NCBI RefSeq assembly: GCF_000203915.1
Contig: NC_008391.1
Span: forward strand, 992,001 to 1,056,000
DNA: 64,000 nt
Reading direction: 5' to 3'
Source: Burkholderia ambifaria AMMD
Lineage (GTDB): Bacteria; Pseudomonadota; Gammaproteobacteria; Burkholderiales; Burkholderiaceae
This document shows, piece after piece, positions 19,216 to 45,706 of the stretch. Numbering within the stretch: the first letter of the stretch is position 1; each line of letters starts with the position of its first letter. The position numbers and the translations under genes are program-made. The notes beneath the pieces were generated by a model. That model ran no database searches. It was given only the letters and a program-made list of their open reading frames with translations, and was not told where the DNA came from.

Positions 19216-19228
19216 CGAACGATCCTGC

Positions 19229-24181: not shown

Positions 24182-25140
24182 GATTTGCGCTCCGTCATGA
24201 ACTTGCCTTCCGGCGCCTTCGCGTTCTTCTGCCGGCGCGTGTTGCCGTCGAGGCCGCCGTCGACGGCCCATTCGGCGAACACGGTCGGGCCCGGTTCGAA
24301 TTCGCGCGGCTGCCATTGCGGTGTCAGCACGTCTTCATCCGCGTAGTACTCGATCAGCGCGCCGGCCGGATTCTGGAAGTACCAGAAGTACGCGGACGAC
24401 ACCGGGTGACGCCCCGGGCCGAGCTGCGTTTCCCAGCCGCAGCGGTCGATGTGCATGCCGCCGCCGAACACTTCGTGGATGTCGCGCACGGTGAACGCGA
24501 CGTGGTTCAGGCCGCGCTTGCCATTCGGCAGCGCGAGCAGGAACAGGTCGTGGTGACCGCCGTGCGGCGCGCAGCGCATGAACGCGCCGCGGCCCGGATA
24601 GCGGTCCGACGTCTCGAAGCCGAGCAGCTCGTGATAGAACGTTTCCTGCGCGTCGAGGCAGTTCGTGAAGAACACGACGTGCCCGACCTCGACCGGCTCG
24701 GCGCGCGCATAGATCGGGCTCGGCTGGTCGACGCGCGCCGTCTGGCCCCACACGTTCGACGGCGAGCCGGTGATGTCGAGCGCGCGCTTGCGCGTCACCT
24801 CGATGCGGATCGCCATCCCGTTCGGATCGATGCAGCCCACCGCATCGTCCTGTGCGTAATAGCCGGGCTGGCCGGCCAGCTTCGTGCGCAGCGCGTCGAG
24901 TTCCTGCCGCGTCGCGACGCCCCACGTGACTTCACGCAGCGTCGGCCCCGCTTCGAACGCGGGCGGCAGCGACGGATCGTCGGCCTTCACGACCAGCACG
25001 GTGCAGCCGTTCATCGTCTCGAAACGTGCGCGCGTGTCGTCGTGCGCGACTTCCTTCAGCCCCCAGTCGGCGAAAAAGCGCCGGCACGTCGCGAGGTCGT
25101 CGACACCGTACGTAATCTGCTCGATACCCAAGATGCTCAT
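24178..25140 (-). CDS. Two-domain extradiol-type (VOC) dioxygenase
   Basis: 320 residues with two VOC modules, the layout of type I extradiol ring-cleavage enzymes. Candidate Fe ligands of the 2-His-1-carboxylate site are H in VEVGHVVFFTN (about 165), H in RGLNHVAFTV (about 225) and E in GALIEYYADED (about 276). It would cleave a catechol-like ring next to the hydroxyls. Its sequence is not close to the catechol 2,3-dioxygenases I can recall, so the substrate is open. It lies between the reductase and aldehyde dehydrogenase genes. Confidence 0.83.
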   Translation of the reverse strand: MSILGIEQITYGVDDLATCRRFFADWGLKEVAHDDTRARFETMNGCTVLVVKADDPSLPPAFEAGPTLREVTWGVATRQELDALRTKLAGQPGYYAQDDAVGCIDPNGMAIRIEVTRKRALDITGSPSNVWGQTARVDQPSPIYARAEPVEVGHVVFFTNCLDAQETFYHELLGFETSDRYPGRGAFMRCAPHGGHHDLFLLALPNGKRGLNHVAFTVRDIHEVFGGGMHIDRCGWETQLGPGRHPVSSAYFWYFQNPAGALIEYYADEDVLTPQWQPREFEPGPTVFAEWAVDGGLDGNTRRQKNAKAPEGKFMTERKS

Positions 25141-25158: not shown

Positions 25159-26649
25159 TCAGTTCGCCCACGGCAGCGGCGCGTCGTTCAAGCCCCAGTA
25201 GAGGCTCTTCTGCTGCATGTACTCGCGGATCCCGAGACGTCCCTTCTCGCGGCCCATCCCGCTCTCCTTCCATCCCGAGAACGGCGTGGAGATCGAGAAC
25301 AGCTTGTACGTGTTGATCCACACGGTGCCCGTCTCGAGCGCGCGCGCGATGCGCCACGCGCGCTTGTAGTCGCGCGTCCAGATGCCGGCGGCGAGGCCGA
25401 ACACGCTGTCGTTCGCCTGCGCGATCAGCGATGCTTCGTCGTCGAACGGCATCGCGACGAGCACCGGCCCGAAAATTTCTTCCTGGCAGATGCGTGCGCT
25501 GTTCGGCAAGCCTTCGAGAATCGTCGGCTGATAGAAGAAGCCGCGCTCGCGCCCGTCGCCGGACGGCCGCTCGCCGCCGCACAGCAGGCGCCCGCCTTCT
25601 TCCAGCCCGAGCGCGACGTAGCGCTCCACCGATTCGCGATGCTTCGCGCTGATCAGCGGGCCCATCTGCGTGTCGGGCCGCGTCGGGTCGCCCACGCGCA
25701 GCTTGCGTGCGCCGGCCACCAGCCGCTGCATGAATTCGTCGTACACCGCGCGCTGCACGAACAGCCGCGAACCCGCGATGCAGGCCTCGCCCGACGAGCT
25801 GAAGATGCCGTACAGCACGCCGTTGACCGCGTGATCGAGATCCGCGTCGTCGCACACGATCGTCGGCGACTTGCCGCCGAGTTCCAGCGACACGGGCATC
25901 AGCTTTTCCGCCGCGATGCGCGCGATGCCGCGGCCCACTTCGGTGCCGCCGGTAAATGACACCTTCTTCACGAGCGGATGACGCACCAGCACGTCGCCGA
26001 TCACCGAGCCCTTGCCCGGCAGCACGCTCAGCACGCCCTTCGGCACGCCGGCTTCCTCGCAGATGCGGGCCAGCGCGAGCGACACGAGCGGCGTGACCTC
26101 GGCCGGCTTGAGCACCACCGCGTTGCCGCCGGCGAGCGCCGGGGCCAGCTTCTGCGCGTCGGACGCGATCGGCGAGTTCCACGGCGTGATCGCCGCGATC
26201 ACGCCGATCGGCTCGTGCACGCTCATCGTCAGATAGTCGCCGCGTGACGGCGTCAGTTCCTCGTCGAGCGTCTCGAGGCATGCCGCGAAATAGCGGAACG
26301 TGTTGGCCGCGCTCGCGACCAGCACGCGCGTCTCGCCGATCGGCTTGCCGTTGTCGCGGCGCTGCAGGTTCGCGAGCGCCTCGTGACGCTGCATGATCAG
26401 CTCGGCGATCCGGTACAGCACCAGCGCGCGTTGATGCGGCTTGAGTCCCGCCCAGTCGGCGCGACGCCAGGCGGCGTCGGCGGCCACGACGGCGTCGGCC
26501 GCATCGTCCGCGTTCGCCGTCGATACTTCCAGGTTCAGCGACTGGTCGGCCGGATAGATGCTCGTGTAAGGCGCGCCGCGGCCGCGCCGCCACTCGCCGC
26601 CGATCAGGATGTCGCCGTTGGGTACGAGGCTCGTATCGAATGGAGTCAT
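25159..26649 (-). CDS. Aldehyde dehydrogenase family protein
   Basis: 496 residues, the normal length. Catalytic Cys is in SSSGEACIAGSRLF (about 300) and general-base Glu in VSLELGGKSPTIV (about 266). The NAD-site pattern FTGGTEVGRGIA is present. It oxidises an aldehyde to an acid with NAD(P). In this operon it could act on a semialdehyde made by ring cleavage, as in 2-hydroxymuconate semialdehyde dehydrogenases. The start ATG is 98 bp after the stop of the aspartate dehydrogenase-like gene. Confidence 0.92.
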   Translation of the reverse strand: MTPFDTSLVPNGDILIGGEWRRGRGAPYTSIYPADQSLNLEVSTANADDAADAVVAADAAWRRADWAGLKPHQRALVLYRIAELIMQRHEALANLQRRDNGKPIGETRVLVASAANTFRYFAACLETLDEELTPSRGDYLTMSVHEPIGVIAAITPWNSPIASDAQKLAPALAGGNAVVLKPAEVTPLVSLALARICEEAGVPKGVLSVLPGKGSVIGDVLVRHPLVKKVSFTGGTEVGRGIARIAAEKLMPVSLELGGKSPTIVCDDADLDHAVNGVLYGIFSSSGEACIAGSRLFVQRAVYDEFMQRLVAGARKLRVGDPTRPDTQMGPLISAKHRESVERYVALGLEEGGRLLCGGERPSGDGRERGFFYQPTILEGLPNSARICQEEIFGPVLVAMPFDDEASLIAQANDSVFGLAAGIWTRDYKRAWRIARALETGTVWINTYKLFSISTPFSGWKESGMGREKGRLGIREYMQQKSLYWGLNDAPLPWAN

Positions 26650-26747: not shown

Positions 26748-29227
<2,480 letters not shown>

Positions 29228-29235
<8 letters not shown>

Positions 29236-30025
29236 GGCGTGCAAAGCCTCCAGAAACGTCGATATGGCTGCCCGTCGTGTAGGACGACAGATGCGTTGCG
29301 AGATAAAAAAGTGCCCAGGCTGCCTCGTCGGGCTTGCCGAAGCGATTCAGCGGAATGTTCTTCTTGCGGGCAAGCGCGCCCGTCCAGTCTTCCCAGCTTT
29401 CGCCGGCCTGCGCCTGCGCTTCGTAGCGGCGGCGCCACTGACCCGACTCGACGATGCCGATCAGGATCGAGTTCACGCGGATGCGCTGCGGCGCCAGTTC
29501 GGTTGCGAGCGACTTCACGAAGCTCAGCACGCCCGCGCGCGCCGACGACGTCGCGACCATGTGCGGCTCCGGCTGCAGCGCGAGCAGCGAGTTCACGCAG
29601 GTGATCGTCGGCGCCTGCGCGTCGCGCAGCAGCGGCAAAAACGCGCGCGTCGGGCGGATGATGCTGAAGTACTTCAGTTCGAGCTCTTCGCGCCATGCGT
29701 CGTCGGTCGTGTCGGCGAAGGTCGACACGCGGCCCTGGCCCGCGTTGTTGACCAGCATGTCGGCGCGGCCGAAGCGCTCGGACACGGCCTGCGCGAACGC
29801 GGCCACGTCGGCTTCGTCGAGCACGTTGCAACGCACGGCGAGCAATTGCGCGCCCGCGTATTTCTCGCCGAGCATCGCTTCGGCGCGCGCGAGGCGTTCG
29901 CCGTCGCGGCCGCAAATCGCGACCGACGCGCCGGCCTGCAGGAACCGTTCGGCAGTCGCGAGGCCGATGCCGGACGAGCCGCCCGTCACCACCGCCACCT
30001 GCCCGGTCAGATCGATCTCAATCAT
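29228..30025 (-). CDS. SDR-family protein lacking the catalytic Tyr-Lys pair
   Basis: 265 residues. The Rossmann start TGGSSGIGLATAERF and NNAGQGRVS are normal. Where SDRs carry YxxxK, this protein reads HMVATSSARAGVLSFVKSL, so the expected Tyr and Lys appear as Thr and Arg. It may have another catalytic mechanism, another reaction, or a structural role. It is translationally packed between IclR (4-bp overlap at 30022-30025) and the ThDP gene. Family assignment is secure; activity is not. Confidence 0.85.
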
Positions 30026-30879
30026 CGGAGTCCTAAAGCTTTGAGAAACGTGTGCTCGTCATCCGAGCGGTAATTGAGCCGCCGCGACAGTTCCGCCGCC
30101 GCGCGCTGCACCTTGTCGAACAGGCCGTCGGCGATCAGCGCCTCGTCGATCTCCGGCCGCGGCACCGTCACCGTGATGCACGCGACGATCTTCTGCGTGT
30201 CGTTGCGCACCGGCGCCGTGACCACCGAGATGCCGCGCTCGAACGACGAATTGCTGACGCCGTAGCCGCGCAGCGCATCCTCGCGGATCATTTCGTACAG
30301 CGCATCGACCGTTTCCGGCGTCGCGCTCGTCATCCGGCTCAGCGTGCCTTCCGGATACAGCGCACGCAGCTCCTTCAGCGACAGGTCGCCCATCAGCACG
30401 TGGCCGTGCGTCGTCGCATGCGCGGGCAGCCGCGTGCCGACGTTCACGCGAATCGCGCTGAACACCGGCGACTGGCACTGCGCCTTCGCGACGAACACCA
30501 CGTCGCGGCCGTCGCGAATCACGATGTGCGTCGTGAAGCCGGTCGCGTCGCGCAGGCTCTCGATCACCGGCAGGCCGAGATCGGTCAACTCCAGCGAGCT
30601 CAGGTATTCGAAGCCGAGCCGCAGCACGGCGATGCCCAGCTTGTAGTTGCGATCCTTGTCCGCCCGCTCGAGAAAGCCGAGCGATTCGAGCGTCTGCAGC
30701 AGACGGAACACCGTCGTGCGCGGAATGCCGAGGCGCTTGGACAGCTCCGGCGCACCGAGCACCGGCTCGCGCGGCGAGAATTCGGCGAGGATCCGCAGCC
30801 CGCGTTCGAGGCCCGGCACCACGTAGCCGGCGTCGGCCTTGGTGCTGTCGGATTCTGGTTGTTGCAGCGGTTCGCTCAT
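30022..30879 (-). CDS. IclR-family regulator inside the catabolic operon
   Basis: 285 residues from ATG 30879, which overlaps the hydrolase stop; a reading to 31584 runs through the hydrolase gene and is false. Winged HTH: GLERGLRILAEFS, then PELSKRLGIPRTTVFRLLQTLESLGFLER. The C-terminal effector domain has RLPAHATTHGHVLMGDL and GYGVSNSSFERGISVVTAPV. IclR proteins bind pathway compounds and usually repress or activate ring-degradation genes. It is strongly similar to the second IclR protein at 36524-37468, so the two are paralogs. Likely operators are the two TGTTCC-N6-GGAACA sites. Confidence 0.92.
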   Translation of the reverse strand: MSEPLQQPESDSTKADAGYVVPGLERGLRILAEFSPREPVLGAPELSKRLGIPRTTVFRLLQTLESLGFLERADKDRNYKLGIAVLRLGFEYLSSLELTDLGLPVIESLRDATGFTTHIVIRDGRDVVFVAKAQCQSPVFSAIRVNVGTRLPAHATTHGHVLMGDLSLKELRALYPEGTLSRMTSATPETVDALYEMIREDALRGYGVSNSSFERGISVVTAPVRNDTQKIVACITVTVPRPEIDEALIADGLFDKVQRAAAELSRRLNYRSDDEHTFLKALGLR

Positions 30880-31787
30880 GCCATGCCTCGCTGCGTGTCG
30901 CACTGACGACAGAACGTGTCGATAAGCGACGAATAGACGGCCGGCGCTTCCACGTAGCCGGCATGACCGGCCTGCGGAATCACCTGCAATTCGACCTGCG
31001 CGGCCGCGGCGATCCGCTCGCACGCGGCGGGCGGCGTGATCGCGTCGTTCGCGCCGACGGCCACGGCCGTGCGGCCGCGGAAGCCGGCGAGATCGGTCGC
31101 GAGATCGGCGTTCGCGAGCAGATGCGTGGCCTGCGCATAGCCGGCCGGCACGATGCGCGCCATGTTCCAGCGCACCCACGCACGCGCATCCTCGCTCGCG
31201 AAACCCGACAGCATGTTGCCACTGCGCTGCTCGGCGAGCCCGGCCGGACCGAGTTCGTCGAGCATCGCGAGGCGCGCGTCGCGGCGCGTGTCGCGCGTTT
31301 CGGCGGGCGCACGGCCGTAGCCGCCCGCGGGCGAGATCAGCAGCAGGCCGGCGATCCGCGCGGGCATCAGGCGGCACAGGCCGCCCGCGATGATCGCGCC
31401 GAGCGAATGCCCGACCAGCACGCAGCGTTCGATGCCGAGTGCCTCGAGCCACGCATTCAGCGACGCCGCGTAATCGGCGGCGGTCGGCGACGCGTCGTGC
31501 ACGGGGGTCGACACGCCGTAGCCGGGCGCATCCCACGCAAGCACGCGTCGCGACGCGCCGAGCGTGTCGAGCTGGCACACCCACGATGCGGCGCCCGAGC
31601 CGATCCCGTGCAGCAGCACGACGGGCAGCGCGTGGCCCGCATGCTGCGCGCCGGCCTCGCCTGCGCCAGCCTCACGGTAGCCGATCGTGCCCGCCGCGCC
31701 GGCCGCGCAGCGCTGTTCGGGAAACTGCCCGAGCAGCGCGGCGAATGCCGCGGTGCGGTCGCGTTCACGTTTGTCGATGACACTCAT
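30876..31787 (-). CDS. Alpha/beta hydrolase
   Basis: 303 residues. The oxyanion motif VVLLHGIGSGAASW, nucleophile elbow LVGHSLGAIIAGG (Ser about 128) and C-terminal His in IPQAGHAGYVEAP are visible. It resembles the carbon-carbon hydrolases of meta-cleavage pathways as well as esterases and lactonases. In this operon it may hydrolyse a ring-fission product or an ester. It overlaps the IclR start and follows the cupin gene by 19 bp. Confidence 0.88.
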   Translation of the reverse strand: MSVIDKRERDRTAAFAALLGQFPEQRCAAGAAGTIGYREAGAGEAGAQHAGHALPVVLLHGIGSGAASWVCQLDTLGASRRVLAWDAPGYGVSTPVHDASPTAADYAASLNAWLEALGIERCVLVGHSLGAIIAGGLCRLMPARIAGLLLISPAGGYGRAPAETRDTRRDARLAMLDELGPAGLAEQRSGNMLSGFASEDARAWVRWNMARIVPAGYAQATHLLANADLATDLAGFRGRTAVAVGANDAITPPAACERIAAAAQVELQVIPQAGHAGYVEAPAVYSSLIDTFCRQCDTQRGMA

Positions 31788-31806: not shown

Positions 31807-32334
31807 TCAGCGCTTGATCTTCGCGAGCGGCGAATCCGGCGGATAGGTCGGCGTGATCGGCTTCGCAGAACCGAGCATCACGCACATCAGCGCGTCTTCC
31901 TCGCCGATGTTGATTTCCGTGCGATACACGCCCGGCGGCACCGAGATCAGGTCGCGCTCGCCGAGGATCGCTTCCCAGGTCTCGCCGTCGCGCTCGCAGA
32001 TCACCTTCATCTTGCCGCGCAGCACGAAGAAGATTTCCTCGACGTCGGTGTGGATGTGGCTCGGGCCGATGTTGCCGGCCGGGATGACCATCGTCGAAAA
32101 CGTGAAGTTACCGGCCGGCACCGTGTTGACGTCCTTCGCGACGCCCGTGCCGCCCGTGCCGACGTAGCGCATCTGCGCACGGCGGTACTTCGGGTCGTAG
32201 TCGGCCTGGAACTTCAGCGCGTCCCAGTCGTAGCGCCGCGTCGCGTAGCGCGCGACGCGCCCTTCCATCCAGTCGCCGAAGCTTGCGTCATCCGGCTGGT
32301 CCCACGACTTGCGTTCGAGATCTGCATCCGCCAT
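31807..32334 (-). CDS. Cupin-domain protein
   Basis: 175 residues from ATG 32334 (AAGGAGAGGACG upstream). Cupin motif 1 is SHIHTDVEEIFFVLRG with both His and the Glu. Motif 2, SVPPGVYRTEIN, has Arg where the third His is usual, so a metal would have fewer ligands than in typical cupin dioxygenases. The N-terminal 70 residues are a distinct extension. It could be a dioxygenase, isomerase or binding protein of the pathway. Confidence 0.82.
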   Translation of the reverse strand: MADADLERKSWDQPDDASFGDWMEGRVARYATRRYDWDALKFQADYDPKYRRAQMRYVGTGGTGVAKDVNTVPAGNFTFSTMVIPAGNIGPSHIHTDVEEIFFVLRGKMKVICERDGETWEAILGERDLISVPPGVYRTEINIGEEDALMCVMLGSAKPITPTYPPDSPLAKIKR

Positions 32335-32373
32335 CGTCCTCTCCTTCATTCAGAGTGAAAACTTCAATTCAAA

Positions 32374-33144
32374 TCAATTCATCACGAAGCCGCCGTTCAC
32401 CGGCAGCAGCTGACCCGTCACGAAGCGCGCGCCGTCCGACAGCAGGAACAGCACGGGGCCCGTCACGTCGTCGGGCACCTGCGCGCGCGTGAGCGCGCGG
32501 CCCTGCATGTAGAACGCATGCCGTTCGGCCGGCACGTAGGCGGTCGCCTCGACTTCGGTGAGCCCCGGCGCGATCGCATTCACCGTCACGCCGTGCGCGC
32601 CGAACTCGCGTGCCAGCGCATGCGTCATCGCGATCACGGCGCCCTTGCTGGCGACGTACGCGAGCAGCTTCGGCGCGCCCCACAGCGCGGTGTCCGACGC
32701 GAGGTTCACGATCGCGCCGCGGCCCGAGTGCGCGAGGTGCGGCAGCGCTGCATTGCTGACGAGCCACACGCCGCGTACGTTCACGTTCATCACGGCATCC
32801 CAGGTCGGCACGTCGAGTTCCGTCGACAGCCTGCCGCCCGAGTTCGTGATCGCCGCGTTGTTGATCAGCGCGTCGATGCCGCCGAGCGCCGCCGCACTCT
32901 GCGCGACGAATGCGTCGACGCTCGCCGGATCGGCCAGGTCGAGCGCGAAGAAATGCGCGGTGTGGCCGGCTTGCGTGAGTTCCGCAGCCAGCGCGCGGCC
33001 CTCTTCGGCGAGCACGTCGCCGAACGCGACCTGCGCGCCCGCCGCAACCAGCGCCTTCACGAACGCCGCGCCGAGACCGCGGGCGCCGCCCGTGACGAGT
33101 ACGCGACGCCCCGGCAGCGACACGACCGGAGCGAACTCAGCCAT
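32374..33144 (-). CDS. SDR-family oxidoreductase (canonical)
   Basis: 256 residues from ATG 33144, overlapping the stop of the Rieske oxygenase gene by 8 bp. TGGARGLGAAFVKAL, NNAAITNSGG, Ser in VNLASDTALWG and the full YVASK motif are present, so an active NAD(P)-dependent alcohol or diol dehydrogenase is expected. Directly following the oxygenase gene, it could oxidise a cis-dihydrodiol or another alcohol made by it (inference). Confidence 0.88.
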   Translation of the reverse strand: MAEFAPVVSLPGRRVLVTGGARGLGAAFVKALVAAGAQVAFGDVLAEEGRALAAELTQAGHTAHFFALDLADPASVDAFVAQSAAALGGIDALINNAAITNSGGRLSTELDVPTWDAVMNVNVRGVWLVSNAALPHLAHSGRGAIVNLASDTALWGAPKLLAYVASKGAVIAMTHALAREFGAHGVTVNAIAPGLTEVEATAYVPAERHAFYMQGRALTRAQVPDDVTGPVLFLLSDGARFVTGQLLPVNGGFVMN

Positions 33145-34207
33145 TCGCGGGCTCCGCCGCGGCGTGCGCCGCACGGTGCGCGTCGAGCGCGGACAGGTGT
33201 TCCTGCGCGCGCTGGCGCAGCATCCGGCGCACGCGCGTGATGCCGACGTCGTGCTGGTACAGGTATTCGTGATCGCGTGCATGCGGCGCGAGGCTTTCGA
33301 GGACGTAGCGGTCCTGCTCGAGCACGTCCCAGTGCAGGCCCTCGAGGCGGTTGCGGTACATGAAGCGCCACACGTCGCGCTGCCAGCCGCTGACCTTGCG
33401 GGTGCGCCAGAAGTAGACCTGGCAGTTGTCGCCGTCGACCGGCGTCGCGAAACCGATGATCCCGAAGTTGCCGCCCGGGCCGAACTTCTGCTTGTACGGA
33501 ATCGCGAGACGCATCCACAGGCAGCCGGTTTCGCCGAGCTCGACCCAGTCGAAGTTCACGTCGCGCTGGCCGACCTTCTCGAACATCAGGCCCGTTTCCG
33601 TCTTGCGCACGCGCATGTCGGCCTGCTTGTCGCCTTCGGCCATCGAGTGCGACGTCGCGTGCAGGTACGCGCCGTGCATCGGGTCCATCACGTTGTCGAT
33701 CGCGTACTGGTAATTGCACTTCCAGTTCGACACGCACAGGAAGTGGCCGTACTCGGCGTCGACCAGTTCTTCCGGCAGGTTCAGCGGCGCCGGCTCGCCG
33801 TGCGCTTCGTCGCCGAACCACAGGAAGATCGCGCCGGCCTTCTCCTCGACCGGATACGACTTCACGCACTTCATCCCTTCGAGCGGACAGTTCGACACCG
33901 CCGGCACGCGGTTCACCGTGCCGCCGCCGTCGATTTCGACGCCGTGATACCAGCAGGCGATGTTGCCGCCGAGGTTCCAGCCGAGCGACAGGCGCGCGCC
34001 GCGGTGCGGGCAGCGATCCTCCAGCGCGTGGACCTTCCCCTCGTGATCGCGCCACAGCACGATCTGCTCGGACAGGCGCGTGAGGCCGACAGGCGCATTC
34101 GACACCTGCCAGCTCGGGGCGACGGGATACCAGTAGTTCTTGATGCCGCGGTCGAGGTAGGCGCGGACCGGGTCGTGTTGGACTTCGTGTTGTGCGGGGG
34201 ACGTCAT
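33137..34207 (-). CDS. Rieske non-heme iron oxygenase, catalytic subunit
   Basis: 356 residues. The 2Fe-2S ligands are in CPHRGARLSLG and CWYHGVEI (about residues 65-90). The iron site region DNVMDPMHGAYLHATSHS supplies the two histidines and the bridging Asp. No beta-subunit gene is present and the chain is short, as in alpha-only oxygenases such as O- or N-demethylases and carbazole or dicamba oxygenases. With the ferredoxin and reductase of this operon it makes a complete three-component enzyme. The substrate is unknown to me. Confidence 0.92.
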   Translation of the reverse strand: MTSPAQHEVQHDPVRAYLDRGIKNYWYPVAPSWQVSNAPVGLTRLSEQIVLWRDHEGKVHALEDRCPHRGARLSLGWNLGGNIACWYHGVEIDGGGTVNRVPAVSNCPLEGMKCVKSYPVEEKAGAIFLWFGDEAHGEPAPLNLPEELVDAEYGHFLCVSNWKCNYQYAIDNVMDPMHGAYLHATSHSMAEGDKQADMRVRKTETGLMFEKVGQRDVNFDWVELGETGCLWMRLAIPYKQKFGPGGNFGIIGFATPVDGDNCQVYFWRTRKVSGWQRDVWRFMYRNRLEGLHWDVLEQDRYVLESLAPHARDHEYLYQHDVGITRVRRMLRQRAQEHLSALDAHRAAHAAAEPANG

Positions 34208-34261: not shown

Positions 34262-34573
34262 TCATTCCGCCAGCGCGGCCATTTCGGCGCGGAAGCGCTC
34301 GGGTGTCCATGCCGTGCCGTCCGGCGCACGGAAGCCGATGCGGTTCAGGCCCGCGACGACATCGTCCAGCTCGGTCGCACCGCTCTCGAACACGCGTTCG
34401 AGCGCATCGCCGAGATCGTTCTCGTACTGGGTCGGCGCGGCCTTGCGGTTCTGCCAGACCTGGTTCTCGACCTGGCCGGGAATCTCGATCTGCCCCTTGC
34501 CGGCGACGTTGTTCGGCTGCGGCGCCACCCACGGCTTCAGGAAGGGATTGAAGTTGACGGTCGCTTCTTTCAT
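34262..34573 (-). CDS. Small protein with recombinase-like helix-turn-helix segment
   Basis: 103 residues. The C-terminal third, DVVAGLNRIGFRAPDGTAWTPERFRAEM, looks like the recombinase-type HTH domain that follows serine recombinases (LN..G...DG..WT...). The N-terminal part (MKEATVNFNPFLKPWVAPQP) has no catalytic domain. It lies between the Rieske ferredoxin and oxygenase genes with tight spacing, so it is part of the operon. Whether it binds DNA or helps the oxygenase is unknown. Confidence 0.65.
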   Translation of the reverse strand: MKEATVNFNPFLKPWVAPQPNNVAGKGQIEIPGQVENQVWQNRKAAPTQYENDLGDALERVFESGATELDDVVAGLNRIGFRAPDGTAWTPERFRAEMAALAE

Positions 34574-34574
34574 G

Positions 34575-34892
34575 TCATTCCACCTTGATCTGGATTTCCT
34601 CGCCGGCCAGGCGCACCGCGTACTGCTTCAGCGCGCGCCCGCCCGGGCCCTTCAGGCATTCGCCCGTCTTGATGTCGAACACGGCCTCGTGCAGCGGGCA
34701 TTCGACCGTGCCCTCGTCGACGAAGCCCTGCGTCAGCAGCGCGTACGCATGCGGGCACACGTTCTCGAGCGCATACACCTCGTCGCCGACGCGGTAGATC
34801 CCGATTTCGACGCCGTCGGTCCGCTTGAACTCGATCGGCGCGTCTTCCGACAGCGCGCCGGCGTGTCCGGCGCAAATCCATTGTTCAGACAT
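34575..34892 (-). CDS. Rieske-type ferredoxin
   Basis: 105 residues from ATG 34892 (GGAAGG site). Cluster ligands are in CPHAYALLTQG and CPLHEAVFD. It begins MSEQWICAGHAGALSEDAP, typical of BphA3-like ferredoxins, and should carry electrons from the reductase (22937-24181) to the Rieske oxygenase. It is the first gene of the 14-gene run, downstream of the promoter near 34971 and the operator 34936-34953. Confidence 0.9.
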   Translation of the reverse strand: MSEQWICAGHAGALSEDAPIEFKRTDGVEIGIYRVGDEVYALENVCPHAYALLTQGFVDEGTVECPLHEAVFDIKTGECLKGPGGRALKQYAVRLAGEEIQIKVE

Positions 34893-34935
34893 CTCAAACC
34901 CTTCCTTCTGATCGACTCTCGGTTCGCTCCGGAAT

Positions 34936-34953
34936 TGTTCCATATCCGGAACA
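34936..34953. promoter_or_regulatory. Operator palindrome 1 (catabolic operon side)
   Basis: TGTTCC-ATATCC-GGAACA, a perfect 6-bp inverted repeat with a 6-bp spacer. It lies just downstream of the predicted minus-strand -10 box (34971-34976) and before the ferredoxin gene. The same arms and spacing recur at 35222-35239 near the porin. Probable binding site for one or both IclR paralogs. Confidence 0.7.
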
Positions 34954-34970
34954 GCAGTTTATGGATGGTG

Positions 34971-34998
34971 ATTATAGAAGCGACTTTCCACGAGCAAA
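34971..34998 (-). promoter_or_regulatory. Predicted promoter of the catabolic operon
   Basis: On the minus strand a perfect TATAAT (34971-34976) is preceded by TTTGCT (34993-34998) with a 16-bp spacer. Transcription would start near 34964, so operator 1 would cover about +11 to +28, a position that suits repression. Confidence 0.5.
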
Positions 34999-35172
34999 AC
35001 AAAAAGCTGCATGTCCTAGGGAAAACACTGACCGTTGAGTCGACGCTCTCCGCCGCAACGCCCGTCCAATGTAATTTTTTGTTTGCCGGCGGGCATTTAA
35101 GTCTGTTTTTCTGGATTCTTGAACCCGTGTTGCGGATCGCCGTCATCGCCATCCGGCCCGATAAATTTATTT

Positions 35173-35200
35173 TTGATACGGCGCACGACGCCTCTATACT
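35173..35200 (+). promoter_or_regulatory. Predicted promoter of the divergent porin gene
   Basis: TTGATA (35173-35178), 16-bp spacer, TATACT (35195-35200). The predicted start is near 35207, which puts operator 2 at about +16 to +33, the same geometry as on the other side. Confidence 0.55.
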
Positions 35201-35221
35201 CCATTCCATCAGAGGCACGTT

Positions 35222-35239
35222 GTTCCTTATATGGAACAC
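35222..35239. promoter_or_regulatory. Operator palindrome 2 (porin side)
   Basis: TGTTCC-TTATAT-GGAACA, identical arms and spacing to operator 1. It lies downstream of the porin promoter and about 100 bp before the porin start codon. The pair links porin and operon into one regulon. Confidence 0.7.
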
Positions 35240-35342
35240 AAAAGAATGCCCGCCCCGGTGGCGGAACGCGCGACGGCCGGCCGTCCCCGCGCCCGCCACC
35301 ACGGCATGTTTTTCCGTCAGGTTTGGAGAGTCAGGAGATCAA

Positions 35343-36422
35343 ATGGTCAAGCAAGCGGTAGCAGCAGCAGTGATCGGAATGAGCGCCGTGTCCGGCGCGT
35401 GGGCGCAGAGCAGCGTGGTGCTGTACGGCAGCATGGATGCCGGCGTCGCGTACGTGAACAACGTCGGCGGCCATGCGAAGTGGGCAATGATCCAGGGCAA
35501 CACGCAGCCCGACCGGTGGGGCCTGAAAGGCAAGGAAGACCTCGGCGGCGGCCTGTCGGCGATCTTCCAGCTGGAAAACGGCTTCTATACGAACAACGGC
35601 CAGTTCGCGACCGCGAACACGATCTGGAACCGCGCGGCGTTCGTCGGGCTCAGCTCGGAGCGCTACGGCACGCTGACGCTCGGCCGCCAGACGCCGCTGA
35701 CGTTCGACTATCTCGATCCGCTCAGCACCGCGTATCTCGCGATGAGCTGGTATGCGTTCCACCCCGGCAACATCGACGGGCTCGCCGCGACCGGCAACGT
35801 GCCGTACAACAACGCGGTCAAGTACCGTTCGCCGAGCTTCGGCGGCTTCTCGGCCGCGGCGACGATGGCGCTCGGCAACACGACGAACTTCTCGACCGGC
35901 AAGTCGGTCGGCGTCGCGCTGAACTATGCGAACGGGCCGTTCAAGGCGTCGGCCGTCTACTCGAACGAGCACGACCGCGCGATCCTGATCAGCCAGACGG
36001 GGATCACGTCGTTCCAGGGGCAAAATACCGCGAACGGCTATCTGGCGAACAAGGTCGAGAACATCGGCGCGGGCGCGTCGTACCAGATCGGCGACTTCCT
36101 CGTGCACGGCCTCTACACGCGCGTGAAGATGCAGTCGAACGGGTTTTCCGACACGTTCCAGAGCTACGACGCGGGCGTGAACTATCGCAGCAGCGCGTTC
36201 AACACGATCGCGGGCGGCGCGGCGACCACGACGCTGGCCGGCCGCCGCTGGACTCAGGTCGAGCTCGGCGACATCTATTCGCTGTCCAAGCGCACGCAGC
36301 TCTATGCGAACGTGCTGTTCGAGCACGGCTCGGGCGGCGCGAAGGCCTCGTTCTTCACGGCCGGCACGTCGAGCACCGCGAACCAGGTGATCGTGCTGAC
36401 CGGCATCCACCATTCGTTCTGA
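35343..36422 (+). CDS. Outer-membrane porin (Burkholderia general porin type)
   Basis: 359 residues from ATG 35343 (CAGGAGATCAA). Signal peptide MVKQAVAAAVIGMSAVSGAWA, then QSSVVLYGSMDAGVAYVNN, the typical porin beta-barrel start, and a C-terminal aromatic residue (HHSF) as needed for BAM insertion. The gene is divergent from the Rieske operon with a shared operator motif, so this porin probably admits the operon substrate through the outer membrane. A strong terminator follows. Confidence 0.93.
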   Translation: MVKQAVAAAVIGMSAVSGAWAQSSVVLYGSMDAGVAYVNNVGGHAKWAMIQGNTQPDRWGLKGKEDLGGGLSAIFQLENGFYTNNGQFATANTIWNRAAFVGLSSERYGTLTLGRQTPLTFDYLDPLSTAYLAMSWYAFHPGNIDGLAATGNVPYNNAVKYRSPSFGGFSAAATMALGNTTNFSTGKSVGVALNYANGPFKASAVYSNEHDRAILISQTGITSFQGQNTANGYLANKVENIGAGASYQIGDFLVHGLYTRVKMQSNGFSDTFQSYDAGVNYRSSAFNTIAGGAATTTLAGRRWTQVELGDIYSLSKRTQLYANVLFEHGSGGAKASFFTAGTSSTANQVIVLTGIHHSF

Positions 36423-36523: not shown

Positions 36524-37468
36524 TCAGAACATCGCGACCCGATGGCGCGCGTGCGCGAACGTCGGGTCGCTTTCGAGCGGCCGGTAGTTCAGGCGCTGCG
36601 ACAGGTCGACCGCCGCGCCGCATACCGCTTCGACGAGCCGCTCCTTCTCGCCGGCCTCGCCGATTTCCGAGCGCGGCACCGTCGCCGTGATGGCCGAGAC
36701 GATCGCGCCCGAATGGTCGCGCACGGGCGCGGTCACCGCCGAGATGCCGCTCTCGAACGCGGCTTCGCTCACCGCATAACCGAGCCGCGCGTAATGACGC
36801 ACGCGCTCATACAGCTCGTCGACGGTGCCCGGCGTGCGCTCGGTGAACTGCTCGAGCCGCTTTTCCGGATACAGCTGACGCAGCGCGTCGCGCGTGAGGT
36901 CGCCCATCAGCACGTGGCCGTGCACGGTCGCGTGCGCGGGCAGCCGCGTGCCGACGTGCACCTTCACCGAACCGAACATCGACGTGTTGCTCTGTGCCTT
37001 CGCGACGAACACGACATCGCGCTGGTCGCGGATCAGCAGGTGCGTCGACAGGCCCGTCGCGTCGCGCAGCCGTTCGAGCACGGGCGCGCCGAGGTCGGTC
37101 AGTTCCAGCGAATTCAGGTATTCGAAGCCGAGCCGCATCACGCCGACACCGAGCCGGAAATAGCGGTCGCCGTTCACGCGCTCGAGAAAGCCGAGCGCTT
37201 CGAGCGTCTGCAGCAGACGGAAGGTGGTCGTGCGCGGGATACCGATGCGTTTCGACAACTCGGGCGCGCCGAGCACCGGCTCGCGCGCGGAGAATTCGGC
37301 GAGGATCCGCAGTCCGCGTTCGAGGCCCGGAACCAGATATGACGACGCGCCGCCGGACGATTCGTCGTCGCCCGCGGCCGGCTTCGACGCGTCGTGGTCG
37401 GCGTCGTCGCTCGCTGTCGCGCGCGGCGCGCTTGCCGGCTTCGCCGGCGATTTCGGTGCACCGCTCAT
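36524..37468 (-). CDS. Second IclR-family regulator, paralog of the operon-internal one
   Basis: 314 residues from ATG 37468; the frame is open to 37525 without a good start. A polar low-complexity N-terminal extension of about 45 residues precedes the winged HTH (GLERGLRILAEFS, PELSKRIGIPRTTTFRLLQ). The effector domain shares many stretches with the IclR at 30022-30879 (REPVLGAPELSKR, RLPAHAT.HGHVLMGDL). It is convergent with the porin. It is a likely co-regulator of porin and operon. The 357-bp gap upstream to 37825 shows nothing further. Confidence 0.9.
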   Translation of the reverse strand: MSGAPKSPAKPASAPRATASDDADHDASKPAAGDDESSGGASSYLVPGLERGLRILAEFSAREPVLGAPELSKRIGIPRTTTFRLLQTLEALGFLERVNGDRYFRLGVGVMRLGFEYLNSLELTDLGAPVLERLRDATGLSTHLLIRDQRDVVFVAKAQSNTSMFGSVKVHVGTRLPAHATVHGHVLMGDLTRDALRQLYPEKRLEQFTERTPGTVDELYERVRHYARLGYAVSEAAFESGISAVTAPVRDHSGAIVSAITATVPRSEIGEAGEKERLVEAVCGAAVDLSQRLNYRPLESDPTFAHARHRVAMF

Positions 37469-40339: not shown

Positions 40340-40800
40340 GGAACACTCATCCTCGTTGCGCTACCACCGTCGCGCGGCGCGTCGGCCGGAATCGTGACGT
40401 CAAGTCTCGTCATGCCCCGCGCCACGCACCGCGTCCTTCGCACGATGGTACACAGATACCGGCCGGCTCGACCGGACACCGATTCGCAACCGCTCGCGCA
40501 GCAATCCGGCAATCGCCGCTTCGATTCCCACCCATCGGCGAACAAACGTCGGCAGCGGGCTTCCGTCTGACGATGCTTTACAGTCCGTCGGCACCCATAC
40601 GAAAGCATGCGCTGGCAGAATCGCGGACCGCGCCACGACCGTACCCGAACGCCCGCCAGGCGCCCCGGCGCACGCCGCATCGCTGGCGGTCCGCATCGCG
40701 CTGATTTATGATCGGCTCCGTATCGCGGAATCGTCGTCGCGGCAACGAACCGCATTGCGCCGTGCCCGGCATCAACCCCAACGTCGAGCTCGTCCACACC

Positions 40801-41094
40801 ATGAGAAAAACAACGCCGCGCGTACCCCTGCGCGCCGCCGCCGTCCTGGTGCCAGCCCTGCCGCTCGCGGGCTGCACGTCGCGCGGCGCACCGTCGTACG
40901 TCCTGTTCGGCGCGTATTTCCCGCTCTGGCTCGTCAGCGCGATCGTCGGCATCGTCGGCGCGATCGTCGCGCACCGCGTGTTCGTCGCGACCGGCTGGGC
41001 CGCCACGGTGCCCTACCAGCTCGCCGTCTGCACCGCGATCGGGCTCGTGGTCGCCGTGATCGTATGGCTCACCGGCACGGGGCCGTTTGCATGA
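40801..41094 (+). CDS. ytcA: YtcA-family lipoprotein
   Basis: 97 residues from ATG 40801. An N-terminal lipobox LAGC follows a basic hydrophobic leader (MRKTTPRVPLRAAAVLVPALP), then two membrane helices. The pattern PSYVLFGAYFPLWLVSA is typical of the YtcA family. In E. coli ytcA lies just before mdtNOP, exactly the order seen here. It overlaps the next gene by ATGA. Its role in the efflux system is unknown. Confidence 0.82.
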   Translation: MRKTTPRVPLRAAAVLVPALPLAGCTSRGAPSYVLFGAYFPLWLVSAIVGIVGAIVAHRVFVATGWAATVPYQLAVCTAIGLVVAVIVWLTGTGPFA

Positions 41095-42140
41095 AGGCCG
41101 CCGGCATCACCCGCCCGTCCACGAAAGGCCGCGTGATCGCGCTGGCGATCGTCGCGCTCGGCATCGCCGCGCTCGCGTACGCGTACCACCGCACATCGGC
41201 CTACCCGTCCACCGACGACGCGTCGATCGACGCGGACCTCGTCCACGTCGCGTCGCCCGTCGGCGGCCGCATCGTGCGGCTCGCCGTGCACGAGAACCAG
41301 CGTGTCGCGAAAGGCGACCTGCTGTATGAAATCGATCCGGTGCCGTACCGGCTGACGGTCGCGCAGGCGCAGGCCGATGTCGAGCTCGCGCGCGCATCGC
41401 TCGACACGCGCCGCCGGTCGCTGATCGGCGAGCATTCGAACGCGGCGGTCGCCGTCGAGCAGGTCAAGCGCGCGACGCAGAATTACGATCTCGCGACGCG
41501 CGACGTGAACCGCCTCGCGCCGCTCGCCGCACAGGGCTACGTGAGCGCGCAGCAGTTCGACCAGGCGAAGGTGCGGCAGCGCGATGCGGCCGTGTCGCTC
41601 GCGCAGGCCAAGGAACAGCAGCGATCGTCCGCGCAGACGATCGGCGACGATGCCGACGCGATCGCGACGCTCCATGCGCGCGAAGCCGCACTCGCCCGCG
41701 CGCAGCACGCGCTCGACGATACGGTCGTGCGCGCGCCGCACGACGGGCTCGTGACGGGGCTGACCGTGCTCGCCGGCGAAACCCTCGCGCCGAACCAGTC
41801 GATCTTCACGCTGATCGACGCAAGCGAATGGTTCGCGGTCGGCAATTTCCGCGAGACGTCGCTGAATCGTATCGCGGTCGGCGATTGCGCGACCGTCTAT
41901 TCGATGATCGACCGCAGCCGCGCGCTGACGGGCAAGGTCATCGGCATCGGCGCCGGCATCGCGGACAGCGATCGCATCAACCTGCCGCGCGCGCTGCCGA
42001 TCGTGCAGCGGTCGGTGAACTGGGTGCATGTCGCGCAGCGCTTCCCCGTGCGCGTGAAGCTCGACGAACCCGACGGCAAGCTCGTGCGTGTCGGCGCGAG
42101 CGCGATCGTCGAGGTCCGGCATGGCTCAGCCTGCCGCTGA
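41091..42140 (+). CDS. mdtN: Efflux periplasmic adaptor (MdtN/HlyD type)
   Basis: 349 residues from ATG 41091. One N-terminal membrane anchor (VIALAIVALGIAALAYAY), a biotinyl-lipoyl motif YPSTDDASIDADLVHVASPVGGRI split around a long coiled-coil hairpin (about residues 90-200), then VRAPHDGLVTGL. It links the inner-membrane component to the outer-membrane channel. It overlaps the next gene by 20 bp. Confidence 0.88.
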   Translation: MKAAGITRPSTKGRVIALAIVALGIAALAYAYHRTSAYPSTDDASIDADLVHVASPVGGRIVRLAVHENQRVAKGDLLYEIDPVPYRLTVAQAQADVELARASLDTRRRSLIGEHSNAAVAVEQVKRATQNYDLATRDVNRLAPLAAQGYVSAQQFDQAKVRQRDAAVSLAQAKEQQRSSAQTIGDDADAIATLHAREAALARAQHALDDTVVRAPHDGLVTGLTVLAGETLAPNQSIFTLIDASEWFAVGNFRETSLNRIAVGDCATVYSMIDRSRALTGKVIGIGAGIADSDRINLPRALPIVQRSVNWVHVAQRFPVRVKLDEPDGKLVRVGASAIVEVRHGSACR

Positions 42141-44160
42141 CGTCCGCGCGCCGGGCCCGCGCGAAGTCCTGCGACTGCTCGCGCCGTTTCCGGGGCGCAC
42201 GTCGATCGCCGTGCGGGTCGCACTGATCTGCGCGCTGACCGTGCTCGTGACGAGCGCGTACGGTACGCCCGAAGCCGCGCTGTCCGCCTACGTCGTGTTC
42301 TTCATGATCCGCGCCGACCGCGTGACGAGCATCGTGCTCGCGGCGGCGCTCCTGCTGATCGTCACGATCGTGATCGGGCTCGTGCTCGGCATCGCGATCT
42401 TCAGCATCGACTATTCGATCCTGCGGGTCGCGTGCATGGCCGTGCTGTCGGTCGGGCTGCTGTACCTGACGTCGGCCAGCAAGCTGCGCCCCGTGGGCGC
42501 GATCCTCGCGATGATCGTCGGCTTCGGGCTCGACCAGCTCGGCCTCGCACCGTTCGGCGAAGCCGCGACCCGCGCGCTGCTCTATATCTGGCTGACGATC
42601 GCGATTCCGGTCGGCGTCGCGATCGTCGTCAACCTGCTGATCGCGCCGTCGCCGCGCCGGCTCGCGCTCGCGCAGATCGCCAAGCGCCTGCGGCTCGCCG
42701 CGCGGCGGCTGCGCGGCGAAGACGACGACGACGACGCGCGCGCAGCATTCGACGCCAGCCTGCGCGAAGGCGACAAGCAGTTGCTGACATGGCTCAAGCT
42801 GTCGAAACTCGAAGGCTCGTCGAGCGCCGCCGACGTTGCGGCACTGCGCCAGGCGATTGCGTCGAGCACGGCGCTGATGGTCGGCGTCGCGCTGGCCGAT
42901 CGCGAACCCGACGCACGGCTGCCCGACGCGTTCGCCGCACCGATCGCGGCCACGCTCGACGAGATGGCGGCCATTCTCGAGCGCGGCGGCTATCCGGTCG
43001 ACGTGACGCTCGCACTGCCGCCGGTCGATCCACTGCCGCCGCTCGCGCGCGTCGCCGCGACCGATCTCCATGCGGCGATCACGCGCTTCGCGGAACCGGG
43101 CGCGACGGCCGATCCGACTGCAGCCGCGCCGACACCGCGCGGCGGCTTCTTCCTGCCGGATGCGCGCAGCAATCCCGATCACATCCGCTATGCGCTGAAG
43201 ACGACCGCCGCGGCCATCTTCTGCTATCTGCTGTATTCGCAGCTCGACTGGTCGGGCATCCATACGTGCGTCGTCACCTGCTACATCGTGTCGCTCGGCT
43301 CGACCGCCGAGACGGTCGAGAAGCTCACGCTGCGGATCGTCGGCTGCATCGTCGGTGCGCTGCTCGGCACCGCGGCGCTCGTGTTCGTCGTTCCGGCGCT
43401 CTCGTCGGTCGGTGAGTTGATGGCGCTGGTGTTCGCCGGCGCGTGGCTGTCCGCGTGGGTCGCGTTCGGCTCGCCGCGCATCGGGTACGCGGGCTTCCAG
43501 ATCGCATTCGCGTTTTTCCTGTGCGTGATCCAGGGCGCCGGCCCCGGCTTCGACCTGACGATCGCGCGCGATCGCACGATCGGCATCCTGCTCGGCAACG
43601 TCGTCGTGTATCTCGTATTCACGCGCATCTGGCCCGTCAGCATCGGCAAGCAGATCGACGTCGCGCTCGCCGCGCTGCTCGAGCAGTGGCGCCGCGTCGT
43701 GCAGATCGCGCAGCCGGCCGAACGCCGCACGCTCGCCGCCGAAGCCTTCGCGCGCCACGGCGCGATCGCGCAGGAGCTCGGCCTCGTCCACTACGAACCG
43801 TCGTGGGTACGCCCCGCCGCCACGTGGCTCGCCACCCGGCGCCGCGCACTCGCGGAACTCGGCGCGCTCGAAGGCCCGCTGTTCCTGCTCGCCGAGCGCG
43901 CGCCGGGCGACGCGGCGATCGGCGCACGGCTCGCGCGCGTGGTCGCGCTGCGTGACGGCGACCCGGCTGCCGACACCGCTGCGCCGGCGCCGCCGTCGAC
44001 AGCAAGCGCGGCGACCATGCCGGCCCCGCCCCCGGCCGCCACGCCCGCCGACCCTGCACGCGACGCGCTGCTGAACCTGATCGACACGCGGCTCGCGCAC
44101 ATCGCCGACGCCGCGCGTCAAGCCACCCCGAAGGAGCCTGCCCCTCATGCGCGTCCCTGA
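42121..44160 (+). CDS. mdtO: FUSC-family inner-membrane efflux component (MdtO type)
   Basis: 679 residues from ATG 42121. Two blocks of membrane helices (about residues 30-180 and 350-500), each followed by a soluble region, are the FUSC/aromatic acid exporter layout (PF04632). Together with the adaptor and the channel it would form a tripartite pump; E. coli MdtNOP exports sulfa drugs and puromycin. The C-terminal 40 residues are Ala/Pro-rich linker-like. It overlaps the channel gene by 14 bp. Confidence 0.88.
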   Translation: MAQPAADVRAPGPREVLRLLAPFPGRTSIAVRVALICALTVLVTSAYGTPEAALSAYVVFFMIRADRVTSIVLAAALLLIVTIVIGLVLGIAIFSIDYSILRVACMAVLSVGLLYLTSASKLRPVGAILAMIVGFGLDQLGLAPFGEAATRALLYIWLTIAIPVGVAIVVNLLIAPSPRRLALAQIAKRLRLAARRLRGEDDDDDARAAFDASLREGDKQLLTWLKLSKLEGSSSAADVAALRQAIASSTALMVGVALADREPDARLPDAFAAPIAATLDEMAAILERGGYPVDVTLALPPVDPLPPLARVAATDLHAAITRFAEPGATADPTAAAPTPRGGFFLPDARSNPDHIRYALKTTAAAIFCYLLYSQLDWSGIHTCVVTCYIVSLGSTAETVEKLTLRIVGCIVGALLGTAALVFVVPALSSVGELMALVFAGAWLSAWVAFGSPRIGYAGFQIAFAFFLCVIQGAGPGFDLTIARDRTIGILLGNVVVYLVFTRIWPVSIGKQIDVALAALLEQWRRVVQIAQPAERRTLAAEAFARHGAIAQELGLVHYEPSWVRPAATWLATRRRALAELGALEGPLFLLAERAPGDAAIGARLARVVALRDGDPAADTAAPAPPSTASAATMPAPPPAATPADPARDALLNLIDTRLAHIADAARQATPKEPAPHARP

Positions 44161-45706
44161 ACCGCCGGCCGCGTCGATCGCCGCCGCCGCGCTCGCGACT
44201 GCCGTCGCGCTGGCCGGTTGCGCAACGTCGTCGATCGATCTGGCGCCGGACGCACCCGATCGCCCGTGGCAGCCGCAAACGTCGGCCGCGGGCGACATCG
44301 TGCCGGCCCCGCCGCTCGCGTCCGCGCAACGCGCACCGCACGACTACACGCTGCCGGCCTCGCCCGCGCTCGCATCGGTGTCGCCGCCCGCCGCGCTCGA
44401 TACCGCGCATCCGTATACGCTGCCCGAGCTGATCGATCTCGCCGAATCGACGAACCCGCTGACCCGCATCGCGTGGAACGACGCGCGCAACGCGGCGCTC
44501 GCGGTCGGCATCGCGAAGGCCGCGTACCTGCCGAATTTGTCCGCGACCGCGATGGGCGCGTACCAGACGAGCCACGGCTCGACATCCACGATCCTCGGCG
44601 ACGCGTCGAGCAACACGACCGCGCACGGCACGATCTCGGCGCTGTCGCTGCAATGGCTGCTGTTCGATTTCGGCGGCCGTACGGCGCGCGTCGAGGCGGC
44701 CGAGCAGGCGTCGGTCGCGTCGAACGTCGCGTTCACGGCCGTGCATCAGCAGGTGATCCACGACGTGACGGTCGCGTACTACCGCTACGAAGCCGCCCGC
44801 TCGCGCGCGGCCAGCGCGCAGCAAGGCCTGACGAACGCCGATGCGATCCTCGCGGCGTCCCGCGCACGGCTCAAGCAAGGCGTCGGCACCGTCGTCGAAC
44901 TCGCGCAGTCGACGCAGAACCGCGCACAGGCGAATCTCGCGCTGGTGCAGGCGAACGGCGCGCAAAGCGACAGCTATCTCACACTGGTTTCCGCGCTCGG
45001 CATCTCGCCGCTGTCGAAGCCGTCGATCGCCGCGCTGCCGAAGCGGCCGCTGCCGCCCGCGCTCGCTTCGTCGGTCGACGCGATCGTGTCGGATGCGATC
45101 GCGCGCCGTCCCGACCTGCAGGGCGCGTATGCGCTGGAGCAGGCCAACCGCGCGAAGATCAAGGCCGCGGAAGCCGCGTTCATGCCGAAGGTCTTCCTGT
45201 CCGCGTCGACGTCCTATGCCAGCGGCGGCACGGCCATCACCGCGCTGCCCGCGATCGGCGACCAGGCGCCGACCGTCAACCTGAACGGCAGCCGCTACGG
45301 CGGCGGCGTGTTCCTCGGCGTGACGATCCCGCTGTACGACGGCGGCCTGCGCTCGGCGGTGCTGATGCAGGCGCGCAACGATGCGCAGAGCGCGTCCGCG
45401 CGCCTCACGCGGACCAAGGAGGAAGCCGTCCGCCAGGTCGTCGCCGCGCAGAATGCGGTGCAGACGAGCCTCGCATCGCACGATGCGGCAAAGGCGCTCG
45501 TCGACGCCGCGCAGACGAGCTACGACGCGGCGCTGACCGCGTACCGGAACGGCGTGGGCTCGGTCACCGATGCGACGATCGCGCAAAGCCAGCTGCTCGC
45601 GGCCCGCAACGCGGAGGTCGACAGCTACGCCGGCGCGCTGTCGGCCGCCGCCGCGCTCGCGCTCGCGACGGGGACGATCGGGTCGTCGCAGGCACCGTCG
45701 CAGTAA
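44147..45706 (+). CDS. mdtP: Outer-membrane efflux lipoprotein (NodT/MdtP type)
   Basis: 519 residues. A lipobox LAGC at about residue 25 marks it as a lipoprotein. Two repeated outer-membrane efflux halves follow, each with long helices (e.g. AARSRAASAQQGLTNADAIL) and the strand sections of the TolC barrel. It completes the ytcA-mdtNOP-type operon. The 353-bp gap after it holds the leader of the MgtC-family gene. Confidence 0.9.
   Translation: MRVPEPPAASIAAAALATAVALAGCATSSIDLAPDAPDRPWQPQTSAAGDIVPAPPLASAQRAPHDYTLPASPALASVSPPAALDTAHPYTLPELIDLAESTNPLTRIAWNDARNAALAVGIAKAAYLPNLSATAMGAYQTSHGSTSTILGDASSNTTAHGTISALSLQWLLFDFGGRTARVEAAEQASVASNVAFTAVHQQVIHDVTVAYYRYEAARSRAASAQQGLTNADAILAASRARLKQGVGTVVELAQSTQNRAQANLALVQANGAQSDSYLTLVSALGISPLSKPSIAALPKRPLPPALASSVDAIVSDAIARRPDLQGAYALEQANRAKIKAAEAAFMPKVFLSASTSYASGGTAITALPAIGDQAPTVNLNGSRYGGGVFLGVTIPLYDGGLRSAVLMQARNDAQSASARLTRTKEEAVRQVVAAQNAVQTSLASHDAAKALVDAAQTSYDAALTAYRNGVGSVTDATIAQSQLLAARNAEVDSYAGALSAAAALALATGTIGSSQAPSQ

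Follow-up and report, generated by a model that had tools for sequence, protein, structure and literature searches.

Two copies of the palindrome TGTTCC-N6-GGAACA, here called O1 and O2, lie between an oxygenase operon and a divergent porin gene of Burkholderia ambifaria AMMD, and in related bacteria the larger inferred changes in the distance between them are all close to whole turns of the DNA helix. We regard the two sites as paired operators; the reading we favor, and hold to be fairly probable, is that the IclR proteins encoded in the same cluster bind both sites and bridge them into a loop, which would shut operon and porin together. Repression loops are textbook knowledge that comes from a few Escherichia coli systems. 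If the proposal is true, the loop-forming repressors would gain the IclR family, a large group in charge of much of the breakdown of aromatics in bacteria, and an outer-membrane porin would be tied to a still unnamed oxygenase pathway.

The gene cluster and its two palindromes

The window, i.e., the whole 64,000-nucleotide stretch of DNA that was analyzed, contains the following features, of which the operators and promoter elements are predicted.

22937 to 24181, minus strand: FAD ferredoxin reductase
24178 to 25140, minus strand: extradiol-type (VOC) dioxygenase
25159 to 26649, minus strand: aldehyde dehydrogenase
26748 to 27575, minus strand: aspartate-dehydrogenase family protein
27568 to 29235, minus strand: thiamine-pyrophosphate enzyme
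29228 to 30025, minus strand: SDR oxidoreductase (PRK07062 type)
30022 to 30879, minus strand: IclR-A, regulator within the operon
30876 to 31787, minus strand: alpha/beta hydrolase
31807 to 32349, minus strand: cupin protein
32374 to 33144, minus strand: SDR oxidoreductase
33137 to 34207, minus strand: Rieske oxygenase alpha subunit
34262 to 34573, minus strand: HTH_62 small acidic protein, 103 aa
34575 to 34892, minus strand: Rieske [2Fe-2S] ferredoxin, first gene of the operon
34936 to 34953, no strand assigned: O1, predicted operon-side operator
34971 to 34976, minus strand: predicted operon -10 box, TATAAT (ATTATA kept at 5/6 bases or better in 127/127 regions)
35019 to 35028, no strand assigned: element E, GGGAAAACAC, at about -55 to -64 of the predicted operon start
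35173 to 35200, plus strand: predicted porin promoter, TTGATA-16-TATACT (promoter scan)
35202 to 35219, plus strand: weaker second IclR-type box of O2, CATTCCATCAGAGGCACG, 19 nt upstream of O2 and nearer the promoter
35221 to 35238, no strand assigned: O2, predicted porin-side operator; right half widely kept, left half mainly in Burkholderia and Caballeronia
35343 to 36422, plus strand: porin (Porin_4)
36524 to 37468, minus strand: IclR-B, regulator convergent to the porin

With regard to the enzymes, matches to solved structures are of a general kind (DdmC, carbazole dioxygenase, homoprotocatechuate dioxygenase, aspartate dehydrogenase); the thiamine-pyrophosphate enzyme has no such match at 1e-60, and the literature searched gave no named pathway for the oxygenase cluster. 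Elsewhere in the window, a hybrid-cluster (prismane) protein adjoins a 2Fe-2S/FAD reductase (18193-20896, minus strand), and HlyD-type, FUSC-type and outer-membrane efflux proteins stand in a row (40755-45706, plus strand).

The ferredoxin, HTH_62, oxygenase, porin, IclR-A and IclR-B genes are all present in 75 of the 80 named related loci, taken from Burkholderia, Paraburkholderia, Caballeronia and Trinickia, and this co-occurrence ties the porin to the operon. The remaining five are four short pieces cut by contig ends and one locus, L095, without the ferredoxin. The gene order of the cluster is also annotated in two Caballeronia plasmids. This synteny, the annotated order and the conserved sites described below support the view that both palindromes belong to one regulatory unit, and likewise the claim of an earlier sequence-only reading of this DNA that the porin is part of the pathway. 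As for L095 (Candidatus Burkholderia humilis), several of its operon genes give split matches, and HTH_62 and porin are close together at 9200-9760, with neither ferredoxin nor operator-like site found between them.

A pattern scan of the window places O1, TGTTCCATATCCGGAACA, at 34936-34953 and O2, TGTTCCTTATATGGAACA, at 35221-35238. The sequence-only reading had described both with the same arms and spacer, as they indeed are, and had located O1 correctly, whereas its O2 (35222-35239) must be moved one base to the left. When up to two mismatches are allowed, 7 matches are found in the window where 1.09 would be expected, a count reached in 0 of 100 shuffles. The same reading had also proposed a wider motif search: in the genome of 7,528,567 bases, the only exact copies are O1 and O2 themselves (a reversed control pattern has 0), and one mismatch gives 22 matches versus 7 for the control pattern. 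Within the genus, 65 genomes contain a sum of 101 exact copies (control, 3), with at least one copy in 53 of them, and none was found in G014, G038, G042, G050, G063 and G064, the genus genomes without the oxygenase, i.e., those listed without a match at E 1e-100.

The half-sites GTTCC and GGAAC of both palindromes fit those published for IclR group 1 (GKTYC and GRAMC). However, their arms are 6 bp apart (GTT-10-AAC) rather than 7-8 as for IclR groups 1 and 2 in the available part of the survey (PMC8222616), so that O1 and O2 represent a spacing variant of the group 1 operator and not strict members of that group.

Both sites lie just downstream of -10-like boxes on opposite strands, TATAAT and TATACT, in agreement with the sequence-only reading. 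The former (34976-34971, minus strand) precedes its operator by 17 nt and was given no -35 partner by the promoter scan; the latter (35195-35200, plus strand) has TTGATA 16 nt upstream and a gap of 20 nt to O2. With transcription starting some 7 nt after each -10 box, the operators would cover about +12 to +29 on the operon side and about +15 to +32 on the porin side. Rfam gave no match within 34400-35700.

Conservation and spacing of the sites

How far are these sites kept among relatives? The footprint set consists of 167 distinct ferredoxin-porin intergenic regions, 127 of which came from 161 loci after removal of identical ones, and 40 of which were added later. O1 keeps at least 10 of its 12 arm bases in all 167. 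O2 was located by a rule that requires a hexamer resembling the right half a short way past the porin -10; the rule failed at one locus alone (L308, with a -10 reading TATATT). Its right half is exactly GGAACA in 149/167 regions, a conservation that is partly by construction because the rule demands a hexamer of this kind. The left half retains at least 5/6 bases in 58/167 regions: it is perfect in most Burkholderia, reads TGATCC in many Caballeronia, and is poor in Paraburkholderia. The mirror pair of two perfect sites is thus a Burkholderia trait, while the two-operator plan is wider. The two-site observation of the earlier reading stands, and what it lacked is the half-degenerate O2 outside Burkholderia, the phasing of the sites, and element E.

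O2 is accompanied by its second box, where TTCC occurs in 164/167 regions. In 127 regions, offset 19 was the best offset, with a mean of 8.1/12 arm matches versus 3.0 over 52 offsets. This value falls within the 18-22 nt that separate IclR tandem sites in 94 IclR groups according to the available part of the survey (Suvorova and Gelfand 2021, PMC8222616), and the GTTYC/GRAAC half-sites are likewise shared with the IclR operators described there. O1 may have a weak further box at offset 20, but its score (5.6/12) is no better than that at offset 48 (5.6), so that it does not stand out.

Element E is kept at 9 or more of its 10 bases in 126/127 regions and lies 82-85 bp from O1 in 126/127. In the genome of the window, AGGGAAAACACYGA has two exact matches, one of them here, and up to one mismatch gives 5 matches versus 2 for controls. 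In a second operon of Caballeronia sp. M1242 (L015), E recurs at a distance of 84 bp from a site like O1 (13049 and 13133).

The distance from O1 to O2 falls into groups, first noticed in the initial 84 regions. Over the 167 regions it is 263 bp (1 region), 271-275 (21), 281-286 (139), 294-295 (5) or 305 (1), with no values between. Locus L071 of Paraburkholderia xenovorans LB400, which has the cluster, shows 285 bp. Parsimony on a tree of four concatenated genes gives 53 changes of this distance, of which 11 are of 4 bp or more: -22, -11, -11, -10, -9, -9, -9, 9, 10, 10 and 11. All 11 differ from a multiple of 10.5 by 1.5 bp or less, compared with 9/35 in the flanking leaders used as controls, i.e., O2 to the porin start and the ferredoxin start to O1 (one-sided Fisher p 1.3e-5; 6e-6 to 3e-5 with other parsimony weights; 7e-5 when a -10/+10 pair of one clade, whose reconstruction may be faulty, is omitted). 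For the first 127 regions, the figures were 10/10 versus 12/30 (two-sided p 8e-4). A broader test, in which all changes were redrawn from the control leaders, gave weaker support, with p 0.014 for the phase concentration at the tips and p 0.06 for the small spread.

A scan for periodicity over the 127 distances fails to peak at 10.5 (R 0.752, compared with 0.787 near 12), since a single distance group accounts for most loci. Between O1 and O2, 13 pairwise comparisons show strong sequence divergence in the middle, and pairwise alignments show that the length changes sit in this middle or adjoining O2, not in one spot, which argues against a single slippage hot spot. A prediction was also made before 60 further loci were added, and 39 new regions were tested against it. 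Ten of the new distances lie outside 281-287; seven of them agreed with the prediction, and three (271 bp) missed it by 0.8 bp. Nine of these ten come from one clade, and the other (295 bp) is a new independent change.

Two more sets of loci weigh against the looping reading. The distances in the rearranged loci of Caballeronia sp. M1242 (218 bp) and of G027 (250 bp) deviate from the main phase by about 3 bp, although they differ from each other by 32 bp, or three turns. The other set comprises 12 Cupriavidus-like loci, one of which has matches at 85-86% to named Cupriavidus plasmids. Here two variant sites, for which the 12 loci gave the consensus TGTTYCATATATRAAACA, are 159-405 bp apart, with no clear phasing among few independent lengths.

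The distance groups suggest that spacing, followed from species to species, may reveal looping without experiment. At the same time, nature has provided a series of about 25, 26, 27, 28 and 29 turns across species that is directly testable.

Candidate binding proteins, proposed looping and other explanations

Another question is which protein would read these sites. Both regulators of the cluster score above the Pfam cut-offs (IclR-A, 55.0 bits for HTH_IclR and 97.9 for IclR_C; IclR-B, 55.2 and 115.4). They are 64% identical overall, and over 52 loci with both genes the identity is 93% in the recognition helix, 83% in the HTH and 64% in the sensor domain. With helices so nearly identical, either protein may read both sites, and from these sequences it is likely that they share operators while responding to different ligands. 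Three observations favor an IclR-type binder: the presence of two IclR genes in the cluster, the box at 19 nt, and the lack of exact copies in the six genomes of the genus with no oxygenase match at E 1e-100. The sequence-only reading had assigned both sides to one IclR paralog; the family is supported, whereas helices at 93% identity single out neither protein.

A change in the recognition helix was considered as a proof of binding and rejected: the Cupriavidus-like loci and L014 combine PRST (not PRTT) with half-sites of the AAAC type, but GAAACA is also present in L120, in O2 of G012 (L030) and in O2 of G027 (L252).

As for the Cupriavidus-like genomes (G089 and 11 others), their 19-kb loci contain one such IclR gene, and a first tree joined IclR-A and IclR-B to the exclusion of it (91.7/90). 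These loci had at first been taken to show that a single IclR suffices, an argument that fell when whole-genome searches found a second paralog in 12/12. On the new tree the two Cupriavidus-like paralogs group together (98.6/96), while the grouping of A plus B is weak (64.4/89). This placement of the Cupriavidus-like pair suggests a separate duplication of the pathway regulator.

In the looping explanation, O1 and O2 would both be occupied by IclR-A and/or IclR-B. The bound proteins would sit downstream of the two -10 boxes, touch across about 27 turns of DNA and thus bridge the two operators. Binding would block RNA polymerase at both divergent promoters, and a compound of the pathway would release the repression. 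We found no report of a DNA loop formed by repressors of the IclR family in the literature searched, which is not all that is in print.

Could each operator act alone? The same IclR protein might bind O1 and O2 separately and block each promoter as a road-block with no contact between the sites, a scheme that we consider unlikely. Its appeal is that each operator stands just downstream of its own -10 and would work by itself, and that one operon copy in Caballeronia sp. NK8, located on plasmid pNK84, retains a site like O1 (11/12) with no adjoining porin or IclR-B. However, it leaves unexplained why the larger changes between O1 and O2 are of whole turns while the changes in the leaders are not.

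A second possibility is that the phase lets the two promoters face each other, or serves a protein bound to E near -60 of the operon promoter, and that the operators ride along. The distance between the -10 boxes is as tightly phased as that between the operators (R 0.838 versus 0.752 in 127 regions), and so is that from E to the porin -10 (R 0.823); the promoters or E could therefore be the phased parts. E is in addition nearly invariant and at an almost fixed distance from O1, also in the second M1242 operon, and the available part of PMC2946308 describes phase-dependent coupling of two regulators, SiaR and CRP, in a divergent transport/catabolism region. What speaks for O2 itself is one lineage (5 loci, one event) in which O2 is 33 rather than 23 bp from the porin -10 and the phase is kept. 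On balance, we give this possibility a low probability. These observations indicate that a left block (O1, operon promoter and E) and a right block (porin promoter and O2) keep facing each other, with the operators as the best, not the sole, candidates for the contact between blocks.

A binding role for HTH_62, or for an unlinked regulator, in place of an IclR protein is very improbable. The domain is named helix-turn-helix and its gene is the second of the operon, but the protein is acidic (10 K/R versus 15 D/E). At two sulfatase/porin loci that share these palindromes, tblastn finds IclR and porin relatives and no HTH_62, although the main cluster of each genome contains one. The genome of the window has no exact sites elsewhere. 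The HTH_62 protein of the window looks more like a partner of the oxygenase than a DNA binder. An HTH_62 gene also precedes the gene of a Rieske oxygenase alpha subunit in a second, diverged oxygenase operon (L015, 11014-11232).

Returning to the loop, a more elaborate form of it can be imagined, although it is speculative and we consider it unlikely. Mixed tetramers of IclR-A and IclR-B would clamp O1 and O2 across the 27 turns, so that one phase-locked loop would read two compounds, and operon and porin would open together only at the right combination; the Cupriavidus-like lineage would have arrived at a second IclR of its own to the same end.

Known systems and related loci

NagC, which we take not to belong to the IclR family, is a useful comparison. 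In Escherichia coli, a change of operator phase derepresses both divergent nag operons through loss of a loop, as reported in the available part of PMC2946308. At least two operators in a divergent region are common to both cases, and the phase dependence of NagC repression is ascribed there to the loop (PMC2946308). O1 and O2 are kept in the helical phase that a loop of the NagC kind requires, although the two promoters are in this phase too. Unlike that for NagC, the phasing evidence here comes from comparison and not from experiment, and the sites have two paralogous regulators linked to them.

Closer to the present proteins, the accessible sections of the IclR survey (PMC8222616) state that members of the family bind DNA as dimer or tetramer and name aromatic breakdown and transport among their frequent targets, as here. 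Section 14 of the survey deals with sites about two, three and four turns apart, compared with about 27 here, and its main text has no word beginning with "loop". PcaU, as cited in the part seen of the same survey (PMC8222616), has a three-box operator made of a palindrome and an external half-site repeat, a layout that O1 would resemble if its weak box at 20 nt is real; unlike the present pair, it is one operator.

Two other systems share part of the logic. In Haemophilus influenzae, the divergent nan and siaPT operons for catabolism and transport are phase-coupled by SiaR and CRP, which are two different regulators at neighboring sites and not one operator used twice, judging from the portion of PMC2946308 available. 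PheR of Sphingobium, a repressor of the IclR family, connects the breakdown of aromatics with uptake at the outer membrane; in the available part of PMC13273656, binding is shown at the catabolic promoter, the effect on uptake comes from transcriptomics, and no divergent operator pair was found.

The same kind of sites also occurs in divergent sulfatase/porin regions of two genomes, G017 and G029. The former has TGTTCCATACATGGAACA and TGTTCCGCACATGGAACA 162 bp apart, with a further box (10/12) 19 nt from the first, and the latter has one exact site and two of 10/12 that are 19 nt apart. The IclR protein linked to these regions is only 27-29% identical to IclR-A or IclR-B, and its gene adjoins a FAD monooxygenase (L208, 8668-11854; L209, 7835-11002).

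Finally, plasmid pNK84 carries copies of the operon (L014, L193 and L194), with two oxygenase matches at 77% on a single contig of genome G354. At the place expected for the porin and IclR-B, L014 has an IS21 element.
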